Below, one piece after another: positions 12,956-20,863 of a stretch of DNA of 38,119 nt. Numbering within the stretch: the stretch's first letter is position 1; the number at the start of each line of letters is the position of its first letter. The position numbers were made by a program, and so were the translations under genes. Under the pieces are notes generated by a model. That model searched no databases. It had not been told where the DNA came from and saw only the letters and a list, made by a program, of their open reading frames with translations. Where the stretch lies: NCBI GenBank assembly GCA_938088195.1, contig CALKEO010000049.1, positions 1 to 38,119 on the forward strand. Direction: 5' to 3'. The stretch is from an uncultured Flavobacteriaceae bacterium (GTDB taxonomy: Bacteria > Bacteroidota > Bacteroidia > Flavobacteriales > Flavobacteriaceae).

Positions 12956-14266
12956 TTAATATCTATAATATTCAGGTTTATAAGGCCCTTCAACTTTAAC
13001 CCCAATGTAATCAGCTTGATCATTACTTAAATCTTCCAATTCAACACCTAATCTCTTTAAATGTAATTTAGCAACTTTTTCATCAAGATGCTTTGGAAGC
13101 ATGTAAACTTTATTTTCGTAAGAATCAGTATTTAGCCACAGTTCCAGTTGAGCTAGAGTCTGATTTGTAAAAGAGTTACTCATTACAAAACTTGGGTGTC
13201 CCGTAGCACATCCTAAATTAACTAATCTTCCCTCAGCTAAAACAATGACATCTTTTCCGTCAATATTGTAAAGATCAACCTGAGGCTTAATTTCATCTTT
13301 TGTATCACCATAATTTTTATTAAGCCATGCCATATCAATTTCATTATCAAAATGACCAATATTACATACAATAGCTTTGTCTTTCATTAACCTAAAATGC
13401 TCTTCTTTCAAAATATCTTTATTACCTGTTGCAGTAACAATTATATCGGCATTTCCAATAGCAGTTTTCATCTTTTTAACCTCATGTCCATCCATTGATG
13501 CTTGAAGAGCGCAAATTGGATCAATTTCTACAACTGTTACAATTGCTCCTGCTCCACTAAATGATGCTACAGTCCCTTTCCCAACATCTCCGTAGCCTGC
13601 AACTAACACTCTCTTTCCAGCCATCATTATGTCAGTTGCCCTTCTTACTGCATCAACAGCGCTTTCTTGACAACCATATTTATTATCAAATTTAGATTTA
13701 GTAACAGAATCATTTACATTAATTGCTGGCAATGGTAGTGTGCCATTTTTAACTCTTTCATATAATCTATGAACCCCAGTGGTAGTCTCCTCTGAAAGTC
13801 CTTTAATTCGTTTTACAAGTTCAGGATAATGATCCAAGACTAAGTTTGTTAAATCTCCTCCATCATCTAAAATCATATTTAATGGTTTTTTATCCTCTCC
13901 AAAAAATACAGTTTGTTCAATACACCATTCAAACTCTTCTTCATTCATTCCTTTCCATGCATAAACAGGTATACCTGCTGCTGCTATTGCTGCAGCTGCA
14001 TGATCTTGTGTAGAAAAAATATTACATGAGCTCCAAGTGACATCAGCTCCAAGATCAACCAATGTTTCTATAAGAACTGCTGTTTGGATTGTCATATGAA
14101 GACAACCTGCAATTCTAGCTCCTTTAAGTGGTTTTGTTTCGCCATATTCTTCTCTAAGTGCCATAAGTCCTGGCATTTCAGCCTCTGCCAATCTGATTTC
14201 TTTTCTTCCCCATTCTGCTAGAGAAATGTCTTTGACCTTGTATGGTATGTAATTTGTTTTACTCAT
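12956..14266 (-). CDS. ahcY: S-adenosylhomocysteine hydrolase
   Basis: This 436-residue protein matches the full length of bacterial AhcY enzymes. The NAD-binding glycine motif is AGYGDVGKG (residues 223-231). Catalytic-region signatures include [17 protein letters not shown] and the substrate-site stretch [13 protein letters not shown]. The C-terminal K430-PEYYRY reaches into the neighbouring subunit's NAD site, a family trait. It splits S-adenosylhomocysteine, the product of methyltransferase reactions, into adenosine and homocysteine, feeding MetH. It is the last gene of the SAM-cycle operon, with its start 3 bp after the metK stop. Start ATG as usual for the family ([23 protein letters not shown]). 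Confidence 0.98.
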
Positions 14267-14269
14267 TTT

Positions 14270-15520
14270 TTATAATTTAAATTTTTGTTTAATTTTTTCA
14301 ACGTAATCTAATTTTTCCCAGGTAAAAAGTTCAACTTCAATATTTTTAGTTTCACCACTTGGAGATTTAAATGTCTTTGATATAAATTTTGATTTTCTTC
14401 CCATATGACCATAAGCTGCAGTTTCCTGATAAATTGGATTTCTTAATTTTAATCTTTTTTCAATAAAATAAGGGCGCATATCAAAAATTTCTTCAACAAT
14501 TTTAGCTAATTCACTATCGTTCATATTAATTTTTGATGTTCCATAAGTATTAATAAATATACCCATAGGTTTAGCGACTCCAATGGCATAACTTACCTGA
14601 ACCAAACATTCGTCGGCTATACCAGCAGCGACAAGGTTTTTAGCTATGTGTCTTGTGGCATAAGCTGCACTTCTGTCTACTTTACTTGGATCTTTTCCTG
14701 AAAAAGCACCCCCTCCATGTGCACCTTTTCCTCCATAAGTGTCTACTATGATTTTTCTTCCTGTTAGACCTGTATCCCCGTGAGGACCACCAATAACAAA
14801 TTTACCTGTAGGATTTATATGATATTCTATTTCGTCATTAAAAAAAGTTTTATAAGTTGGGTACTTATTTAATATTCTTGGAATCAAAATTGAGGTAATA
14901 TCCGACTTAATTTTAGCTAACATTTTATCTTCATCGTCAAAGTCATCATGTTGTGTAGAAACCACTATAGCTACAATTTTTTCAGGCTTATTATCTTCAG
15001 AGTATTGTAATGTTACTTGAGATTTAGAATCAGGTCTTAAATAAGGTATTTCATTATTTTCTCTTCTTAATTCGGCTAATTCTATTAAAATTTTATGGGA
15101 TAAATCTAAAGCTAGTGGCATATAGTCTTCTGTCTCATTACAAGCGTAACCAAACATCATTCCTTGATCTCCAGCTCCTTGATCTTCTGGATTTTTTCTC
15201 TCAACACCCTGATTAATGTCAGATGATTGCTCGTGTATGGCAGAAAAAACACCACAAGAATTACCATCAAACATATATTCGCTTTTGTTGTAACCAATAT
15301 TATTAATTACTTTTCTAGAAATTGCTTGAACATCAAGATAAGTATTGGATTTAACTTCACCTGCAAGCACAACTTGTCCAGTGGTTACTAAGGTTTCACA
15401 AGCAACCTTTGAATTAGCATCAAAAGCTAAAAAATTATCAATTAGTGCATCGCTAATTTGATCAGCAACTTTATCGGGATGACCTTCACTAACAGACTCG
15501 GATGTAAATAGATAACTCAT
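14270..15520 (-). CDS. metK: S-adenosylmethionine synthetase
   Basis: This 416-residue protein has MetK signatures throughout: [19 protein letters not shown] (ATP-site histidine and aspartate in GHPDK, residues 13-17), [40 protein letters not shown], and the glycine-rich loop [19 protein letters not shown]. It makes SAM from methionine and ATP in the cytoplasm. It is 30 bp downstream of metF and 3 bp upstream of ahcY in the riboswitch-led operon, so its product is expected to repress its own expression. No residue oddities were noticed. Confidence 0.98.
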
Positions 15521-15550
15521 AAAAAAAAAATTTTTCCAAATATAGTTAAG

Positions 15551-16504
15551 CTAAAATAAATCAGAAGCAATTTTTTTAATATTTAATGCTTTTCCCATTG
15601 AATAATAATGTAAAAAAGGTACACCAGCATCTTTTAGCTCTTTACTTTGCTGAATACACCACTCAATACCAACTTCTTTAACTTGAGAATTATCTTTACA
15701 CTTTATAATCTGTTTTATTAATTCTTCCGGCAAATCACAATGAAACCTGTGGGGAAGAATATTTAGTTGTTTTTTTGTTGAAATAGGTTTTAATCCAGGA
15801 ATGATTGGAACATTGATTCCCTCTTTTTTACAAATATCTTGAAATTCAAAAAACTTTTTATTATCAAAAAACATTTGAGTTATAATGTAATCTGCACCTA
15901 ATTTTATTTTTTCTTTTAAAAAATGGATGTCACTTTCAAGGCTTGGTGCCTCCATATGTTTCTCAGGATAACCAGCCACACCTATACAAAAATCAGTTTT
16001 TGAGGAAATCTCAAGTTCTTCTAAATATTTTCCTTTGTTTAAGTCTGATATTTGTTCAACTAATTGACTAGCGAATTTATGACCATCTTTATTGGGTGTG
16101 AAATAAGTTTCTGATTTTATGGCATCTCCTCTGAGTGCAACCACATTATTTATTCCCAAAAAATCTAAATCTATTAATAAATTTTCCGTTACTTCTTTAT
16201 CAAAACCGCCGCATAAAATGTGAGGAACAGCATCTACGTTATATTTGTTTTGTAAAGCTGCACAAATTCCAACAGTTCCTGGTCTTTTTCTAACAACTTT
16301 TTTTTCTAATAAACCATTACCAAGCTCATTATAAATATGCTCTTCTCTATGGTAAGTAACATCTATAAAGGGAGGATTAAATTCCATTAATGGGTCAATG
16401 TTATCAAAAATTGAATGAATACTATGGCCTTTTACGGGAGGTAAAATTTCAAAAGTAAATTGAGTTTCACCCTTAGCTTTTTTTATATGATCTATTACTT
16501 TCAT
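15551..16504 (-). CDS. metF: 5,10-methylenetetrahydrofolate reductase
   Basis: This 317-residue TIM-barrel flavoprotein belongs to the MetF family. It has the N-terminal FTFEILPP strand with the catalytic-position glutamate, FIDVTYHREEH, the FAD-site stretch NNVVALRGDAI, IGVAGYPEKHMEAPS, and GADYIITQMFFDNKKFFEF. It reduces methylene-THF to methyl-THF, the methyl donor for MetH. It starts 4 bp after the end of the large metH gene, and 30 bp separate it from metK. The long insert after FEILPP (KGHSIHSIFDNIDPL) is the form usual in Bacteroidota. Confidence 0.97.
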   Translation of the reverse strand: MKVIDHIKKAKGETQFTFEILPPVKGHSIHSIFDNIDPLMEFNPPFIDVTYHREEHIYNELGNGLLEKKVVRKRPGTVGICAALQNKYNVDAVPHILCGGFDKEVTENLLIDLDFLGINNVVALRGDAIKSETYFTPNKDGHKFASQLVEQISDLNKGKYLEELEISSKTDFCIGVAGYPEKHMEAPSLESDIHFLKEKIKLGADYIITQMFFDNKKFFEFQDICKKEGINVPIIPGLKPISTKKQLNILPHRFHCDLPEELIKQIIKCKDNSQVKEVGIEWCIQQSKELKDAGVPFLHYYSMGKALNIKKIASDLF

Positions 16505-20740: not shown

Positions 20741-20787
20741 AAGATAAAAATTTGGTAATTGTAATAAAAGAATTTTTGAATTTCATA

Positions 20788-20838
20788 TCTGTTTTAGCAT
20801 TTTTTTGAGAGGTAGCAATCAGTCAAATTTTTCCTCCA
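20788..20838 (-). promoter_or_regulatory. SAM-II/SAM-V-type riboswitch (SAM aptamer pseudoknot)
   Basis: Read on the minus strand, the leader contains GGAGG, then AAAAATTTGACTGATTGCTA, then CCTCT, an A-rich linker and GCTAAAACAGA. This matches the SAM-II layout: helix P1 (GGAGG 20837-20833 with CCTCT 20812-20808), a U-rich loop with AUUUGA...GAUUGC, and a 3' tail GCUAAAA. The tail pairs back to the loop to form the pseudoknot: CUG 20822-20820 with CAG 20791-20789, and GC 20816-20815 with GC 20798-20797. It lies downstream of a TATATTTG promoter element and upstream of a methionine/SAM operon, the expected target. A weak hairpin followed by a short U-run (20784-20762) could be part of the expression platform. 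I could not run a covariance model, so SAM-II versus SAM-V is undecided. Confidence 0.82.
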
Positions 20839-20855
20839 AACTTGGTACAATATTA

Positions 20856-20863
20856 CAAATATA
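20856..20863 (-). promoter_or_regulatory. Promoter -7 element of the SAM-cycle operon
   Basis: TATATTTG on the minus strand is an exact match to the Bacteroidota -7 consensus TAnnTTTG. It would place the transcript start near 20849, about 10 nt before the aptamer. No TTG is found at the -33 position, which falls inside the tRNA acceptor stem. Read-through from the tRNA gene is therefore an alternative source of the transcript. Confidence 0.5.

Follow-up and report, generated by a model that had tools for sequence, protein, structure and literature searches.

A SAM-II riboswitch that may act through an adjoining leader open reading frame in the SAM-cycle operon of a Flavobacteriaceae bacterium

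The element studied here is a SAM-II riboswitch (SAM, S-adenosylmethionine) on the minus strand of a 38,119-nucleotide (nt) stretch of DNA from an uncultured Flavobacteriaceae bacterium (assembly GCA_938088195.1, contig CALKEO010000049.1; the whole stretch is called the window below), where it precedes an operon for the SAM cycle that begins with a gene for a DUF6580 membrane protein. The closest aptamers are the "SAM-II long loops" (RF01726), which have been recorded for Bacteroidetes and marine samples (Weinberg 2010, Table 1; PMC2864571), and SAM-II in Bacteroidetes was noted already by a 2007 survey (PMC2258182). In SAM-V and in the translational metX SAM-II riboswitch, SAM stabilises a pseudoknot that covers the ribosome site lying immediately 3' of it, namely a Shine–Dalgarno (SD) sequence (PMC6061858). 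The SAM-II aptamer of Sinorhizobium meliloti metA is directly followed by a start codon (AUG1), whereas the real start (AUG2) lies in frame 74 nt further on; an SD sequence in the riboswitch is required, and a terminator stands between AUG1 and AUG2 (Scheuer 2022, PMC9373788). In Mycobacterium tuberculosis ppe2, a B12 riboswitch controls the leader open reading frame (ORF) uPPE2, and an AUGA overlap hands ribosomes to PPE2, which is expressed mainly by termination–reinitiation (Kipkorir 2024, PMC11260477). Beyond S. meliloti metA and ppe2, our literature search, outside whose coverage many subscription journals lie, turned up no example with a leader ORF for SAM-II or for Bacteroidetes.

The locus in the window shares features with each of these systems. 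It has the aptamer sequence and fold, the phylum and the methionine/SAM genes of the long-loop family, but most of the leaders counted in front of metK or metY have a complement of the aptamer (35 of 42), whereas here a leader ORF starts at an AUG 2 nt past the pseudoknot. The S. meliloti metA switch likewise has an AUG right after the aptamer and the gene start tens of nt on; unlike there, 12 of 13 leader ORFs in the genus are in another frame than the gene and stop no more than 14 nt from the main start, no such SD sequence is present, and no intrinsic terminator was found in the window (region 20600-21050). The layout of ppe2, in which a riboswitch adjoins a short ORF and the stop of that ORF overlaps the gene start, recurs here as a layout, and expression here too would be mainly by termination–reinitiation; the ligand, the aptamer class and the phylum differ, and the relay has been demonstrated by experiment for ppe2 and is deduced here. 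Compared with SAM-V and the metX switch, the pseudoknot would hide the start codon of the leader ORF instead of an SD sequence. We believe that the locus is a SAM-II off-switch whose expression platform relays ribosomes through the leader ORF, with a probability of roughly 60%; the anatomy of a relay-like platform is well supported, and its mechanism is moderately supported. The features that carry this reading are as follows:

20784..20842, minus strand: SAM-II (long loop) aptamer, RF01726 match of 64.6 bits (gathering score 44)
20809..20836, minus strand: stem P1, GAGG at 20836-20833 with CCUC at 20812-20809, read from the sequence and invariant in 49 distinct aptamers
20789..20822, minus strand: P2 pseudoknot, CUG at 20822-20820 with CAG at 20791-20789, read from the sequence, 99.3% of cells paired
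20733..20786, minus strand: leader ORF (upstream ORF, uORF) of 17 codons, AUG 2 nt past the CAG, UAA stop overlapping the DUF6580 start, from the sequence and shuffle tests
20733..20740, minus strand: AUGAAUAA, the stop/start overlap of the leader ORF and DUF6580, read from the sequence

The match to the Rfam covariance model runs from 20842 to 20784, spans model positions 1-60 of 60 and has an E-value of 2.3e-10 for the whole window. The list of matches up to E 10 for region 20600-21050 had 8 entries, none of them SAM-V, and two further matches had been removed from it as clan overlaps (RF01726 is without a clan in that table). An earlier note on this DNA had proposed a SAM-II/SAM-V-type switch; the SAM-II part of the proposal stands and the SAM-V part falls. 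The pseudoknot it described was found as claimed, with P1 GAGG/CCUC, the AUUUGACUGAUUGC loop, the GCUAAAACAG tail and the CUG/CAG helix. An alignment (A3) of 50 of the 60 loci L001-L060 (our working numbers are L for loci and G for genomes; L004, L013, L021, L041, L046, L050, L055, L056, L059 and L060 were omitted) held 49 distinct aptamers, in which 93.2% and 99.3% of the cells were paired in P1 and P2, respectively. Regarding covariation, which the earlier note had raised, four of the five P1 pairs and one of the three CUG/CAG pairs are invariant; the remaining two CUG/CAG pairs changed on one side, once each, and one of them breaks once. The outer P1 pair is the sole pair with two-sided changes (7 cells, equalled by 104 of 500 shuffles), and the core is invariant. 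By sequence, a SAM-II riboswitch at this leader is confirmed, its class is already known, and this copy would presumably bind SAM.

The DUF6580 gene was found in 13 of the 22 genomes of the genus, and all 13 have an RF01726 match just upstream; these are the 13 leaders compared here. In every one of them an ATG stands exactly 2 nt past the P2 CAG, though the distance from the CAG to the DUF6580 ATG varies from 36 to 112 nt. Twelve of the leader ORFs have 12-32 codons. In 9 of the 13 leaders the stop of this ORF and the DUF6580 start overlap (five as ATGAATAA, four as ATGA), and in two more the stop lies 2 nt ahead of the start; the leader ORF of G018 is in frame with DUF6580 and lengthens it by 26 codons. 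An SD sequence between the aptamer core and this AUG was not found, the 13 leader tails reading GCTAAA(A/G)CAGnnATG without a GAGG-like motif (by eye). The earlier note was right that control in a host without SD sites needs explaining. It had counted 47 nt to the start codon, close to the measured 43 nt from the end of the Rfam match and 48 nt from the CAG, but the puzzle it saw in this distance probably rests on the wrong start codon, since the AUG 2 nt past the pseudoknot opens the leader ORF, whose stop overlaps the annotated start. Two other kinds of small ORF were rejected. A 5-codon mini-ORF starting within the aptamer (AUGCUAAAACAGnnAUGA) was dismissed because its AUG is missing in 7 of the 13 leaders (G021, G018, G006, G017, G010, G003 and G011; by eye), and a methionine-sensing attenuator peptide because the 12 out-of-frame peptides have no internal Met and are not conserved.

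For the chance test, the leaders were shuffled with dinucleotides preserved and the gene start kept fixed, and a frame was counted when it ended no more than 5 nt before the start, or after it. Frames reaching the DUF6580 start numbered 12 of 13, against 4.06 expected from the shuffles (7.6e-7), and 10 of 11, against 3.23 expected, after removal of two near-duplicates (3.7e-6); the other two frames were open in 0 and 5 of the 13 leaders, respectively. An avoidance of internal AUGs was not significant (2 observed, 3.89 expected). In other SAM-II leaders, the register 2 nt past the CAG held an ATG in 0 of 20 metY/lipoprotein leaders of the same genus, 4 of which were open, and in 0 of 26 metK leaders, so that 46 of 46 lacked an AUG there. 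The 20 come from 22 leaders (without L021, at a contig edge, and L022, without a CAG), and the 26 from the 28 loci L033-L060 (L040 left out; start of L043 not found). The exact pattern with ATG was present in 5 of 397 family genomes, namely three of this genus and two with metK leaders; in the latter, judged by eye, one frame closes after 8 codons and the other continues past the start of metK. Among 196 order-level genomes, with 0-6 nt spacing and ATGA allowed, the window genome was the only match.

Bacteroidetes are without SD sites, and their initiation prefers unstructured starts with A at -3, -6, -12 and -13 (PMC6847099). In this study, the A content of the 20 nt ahead of the leader-ORF AUG, a stretch formed by the pseudoknot tail itself, was 60-70%, and 11 of 13 leaders had A at -6; the corresponding values at the main DUF6580 start were 30-55% and 3 of 13. 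We propose that transcription begins a few nt upstream of the aptamer. At low SAM, the strand GCUAAAACAG of the pseudoknot would be open, and its A-rich run would be a good SD-free landing site for ribosomes that use the AUG 2 nt behind it. The ribosomes would translate the short leader ORF, whose peptide itself would be irrelevant, terminate at or next to the DUF6580 AUG and start again from it without an SD sequence, and the operon would be expressed. When SAM is bound, the folded pseudoknot, ending 2 nt ahead of the leader-ORF AUG, would block 30S initiation by the logic of SAM-V and the metX SAM-II switch (PMC6061858), and the DUF6580 AUG, in its U-rich context, would then receive few ribosomes. 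A candidate promoter element for this transcript was also seen:

20856..20863, minus strand: TATATTTG, match to the flavobacterial -7 box TAnnTTTG (consensus from PMC9723704, position from the sequence)

The TAnnTTTG motif starts 17-27 nt ahead of P1 in 12 of the 13 leaders and is absent in G011; in the window, TATATTTG would have the transcript begin shortly upstream of the aptamer.

Several observations weigh against the relay. The leader-ORF start has a G at -3 in 13 of 13 leaders, and the main start has an A at this position in 6 of 13. Predictions give the region of the main AUG no more structure than the start of the leader ORF, and initiation at the DUF6580 AUG may therefore be independent. 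In G007 the leader-ORF stop falls 14 nt short of the DUF6580 start. The 13 leaders share descent, so the counts given above are not independent. The metK leaders, which have no ATG in the register 2 nt past the CAG, are open there in 12 of 26, and TTG, a possible weak start, occupies this register in 12 of the 26, with 5 of these 12 open to metK. Because the metK leaders are so often open, the open frame alone is weak evidence, and the fixed AUG register is the stronger of the two.

The strongest rival is a case of the S. meliloti metA type, in which SAM gates the access of ribosomes to the A-rich tail as a standby or landing site, the adjoining AUG is unused, and translation starts at the distant DUF6580 AUG. 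It has a direct SAM-II precedent, the AUG adjoining the metA aptamer having been shown to be unused (PMC9373788), and is helped by G018, with the same in-frame layout of AUG1 and AUG2, and by the main start region, which is not sequestered. However, it leaves the AUG register (13 of 13) and the 12 of 13 frames open to the main start unexplained, and S. meliloti needs the SD sequence GAGG behind the aptamer, where none was seen in the 13 leaders; we consider it unlikely. We give less credence to mainly transcript-level control by polarity, where SAM would block translation of the leader ORF and the untranslated RNA would be ended by Rho or decay. The same anatomy fits this explanation, and the lack of an intrinsic terminator in 20600-21050 would call for a factor-dependent one. 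SAM-II riboswitches are regarded as mostly transcriptional (PMC6061858), and a contribution of Rho or decay has been suggested for the mycobacterial metE switch (PMC11260477). Against it, the untranslated stretch from the CAG to the gene would be only 36-112 nt, and the stop/start overlap would be superfluous.

Pairing between a downstream strand and the aptamer in the absence of SAM would be another kind of platform, for which the window holds one candidate:

20746..20754, minus strand: CAAAUUUUU, 9-nt complement of aptamer AAAAAUUUG (20832-20824), possible alternative pairing, reached by 2% of shuffles

This strand lies ahead of the DUF6580 AUG. Complements of the 5' part of the aptamer (at least 7 nt) were found in 16 of 21 metK leaders and 19 of 21 metY/lipoprotein leaders, which are most of the other SAM-II leaders counted, and in 2 of the 13 metH-operon leaders, namely the window (9 nt) and its near relative G011 (10 nt). 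Strands after the CAG complementary to the region before the gene start (at least 6 nt; for metK, before the metK ATG) occurred in 16 of 21, 10 of 21 and 3 of 13 leaders, respectively, and pairing of the tail (at least 5 nt; for metK, such as AAAGCA with UGCUUU) in 17 of 21, 12 of 21 and 1 of 13. In these counts, 21 of the 28 loci L033-L060 were used (7 were dropped because the start-codon pattern failed, including L040, which is not metK), together with 21 of the 22 metY/lipoprotein leaders (without L021). The complements in the window and in G011 keep this explanation in play for the window and speak against the relay, but the other 11 leaders of the same operon have no complement of at least 7 nt, and the window leader folds no better than its shuffles (z 0.19); we think it improbable. 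The metK leaders of other genera of the family (L033-L060) show a three-strand platform, in which UGCUUU can pair with the tail AAAGCA or, alternatively, with a second AAAGCA just ahead of the metK AUG, and they also contain a complement of the aptamer such as AAUCCUUC. In most of the same-genus metY-type leaders (for example, L002, L005, L016 and L024), GUCAAAUC, the complement of aptamer GAUUUGAC, comes soon after the aptamer. The idea that the leader-ORF start pairs with coding sequence of DUF6580 was tried and rejected: the longest pairing was 9 nt in the window, a length that 3 of 100 shuffles also reached, and no more than 7 nt in any of the other 12 leaders, where at least 22 of 100 shuffles did as well in each case. 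Finally, the leader ORF may be a chance by-product of AT-rich sequence and the common ATGANTAAA gene starts, which would trap out-of-frame ribosomes regardless. The leader peptides are not conserved among the 13 leaders, in 12 of 13 cases both other frames have a stop at the main start, the leaders are of shared descent, and the open metK leaders point the same way. However, shuffles with the main start fixed still give 6e-7 to 4e-6, and the AUG register is constant though the remaining leader diverged in length and sequence; we regard chance as the least likely of the four.

The relay would lie behind an aptamer of an ordinary kind, because the class has been in print for Bacteroidetes since 2010 and is frequent in relatives. 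SAM-II was present in 19 of 22 genomes of the same genus and in 373 of 397 sampled family genomes (358 over the cut-off), and the description of the class as best known in proteobacteria is, in view of these numbers and of the Bacteroidetes literature (PMC2864571), incorrect or at least incomplete. The host genome (G000) has three RF01726 matches over the cut-off and one weak match of 30.9 bits. The second copy (L002) precedes a metY-like gene, named by eye. The third copy (L001, C39) precedes a lipoprotein-like gene (by eye) and has a 39-nt leader with no anti-aptamer complement above 6 nt. The weak match (L004, C64:394-460) is below the cut-off, possibly lies in coding sequence and is probably due to chance; it was excluded from all counts. 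In L126 (Marinoscillum), SAM-I/IV riboswitches, another SAM class, at 2211-2300 and 8242-8327 stand on the same methionine gene set together with queF.

The operon behind the aptamer has the gene content that the earlier note had read from the sequence, namely a membrane protein (DUF6580), split metH, metF, metK and ahcY:

20189..20740, minus strand: DUF6580 membrane protein with ECF (energy-coupling factor) S-component fold, probable cobalamin uptake subunit (Pfam; fold; cobalamin riboswitches ahead of homologues)
19190..20182, minus strand: metH N-terminal half, homocysteine S-methyltransferase (Pfam, NCBIfam)
16509..19187, minus strand: metH C-terminal half, with pterin, B12 and activation domains (Pfam, NCBIfam)
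15551..16504, minus strand: metF (Pfam, NCBIfam)
14270..15520, minus strand: metK, SAM synthetase (Pfam, NCBIfam)
12956..14266, minus strand: ahcY, adenosylhomocysteinase (Pfam, NCBIfam)

DUF6580 was unmatched in NCBIfam, which matched its other five operon partners. The MetH halves are separate ORFs in the window and in 6 of 6 relatives fetched, among which L180 has extra breaks in metH and metF and a stop inside its metH N-terminal half. That one aptamer would also control the SAM synthetase, as had been suggested, is plausible in this genome, where the gap between metF and metK is 30 nt, but metK follows metF in only 4 of the 6 relatives. A tRNA gene (20880-20961, minus strand; anticodon CAA by eye) ends 37 nt ahead of the aptamer; tRNA sequence precedes the leader in several relatives, though not in G008, G016, G017, G018 and G010 (by eye).

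The DUF6580 protein was found to have the fold of an ECF S-component and resembles the cobalamin S-component BtuM in fold (PDB 8c7p, 8ovv), at 11% identity. The Pfam family ECF_trnsprt (PF12822) had no match in the host genome, and the same search gave matches in 6 of 14 control genomes; we take PF12822 to be one of several S-component families and not required of all. Of 31 loci without SAM-II, 13 have a cobalamin riboswitch at most 200 nt upstream of the DUF6580 homologue (7 of 12 and 6 of 19); these 31 loci belong to the 80 DUF6580 loci kept, 36 of which were scanned for RNA families. DUF6580 (window 20189-20740, loci L098-L128) is likely to be a family for the uptake of B12 or a cobamide, and our literature search found no paper under the name DUF6580. 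The queuosine pathway gene queF was found in or near operons of DUF6580 and the SAM cycle at L091, L095, L096, L097, L100, L101 and L126, and in 0 of 22 genomes of the window's genus. As a control, the queF query matched 3 of 4 other genomes, which are the three known to hold queF; the fourth (that of L109) gave nothing. An origin of the leader ORF as a queF remnant was considered and set aside; the observation here is the absence of queF from these 22 genomes.

The ribosomes of Bacteroidota work without SD pairing, and the usual route of translational riboswitches, which is to hide that site, is therefore closed to them. Two testable answers emerge from this study: platforms of competing strands in most of the SAM-II leaders counted, and a relay ORF with its start codon abutting the aptamer in the metH operon of one genus. 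Somewhat short of even odds, we tentatively propose that the latter is a new kind of expression platform for bacteria without SD sites, in which a ligand-stabilised pseudoknot, with no alternative pairing, terminator or SD sequestration, abuts the start of a "landing" ORF that is free in sequence and relays ribosomes by stop/start overlap to a SAM-cycle operon; it sits at the position of queF in related operons and may have replaced queF on its loss. The finding would join two reported oddities, the action of SAM-II on translation at a distance and the relay from a riboswitch through a uORF, and suggests that the annotation of short ORFs adjoining aptamers is worthwhile. It also ties DUF6580 to probable B12 uptake, with a SAM switch here where many relatives have a B12 switch. 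Because the first gene probably encodes an ECF-type B12 uptake subunit, the switch would adjust the supply of B12 together with the B12-dependent methionine synthase and the synthesis and recycling of SAM.

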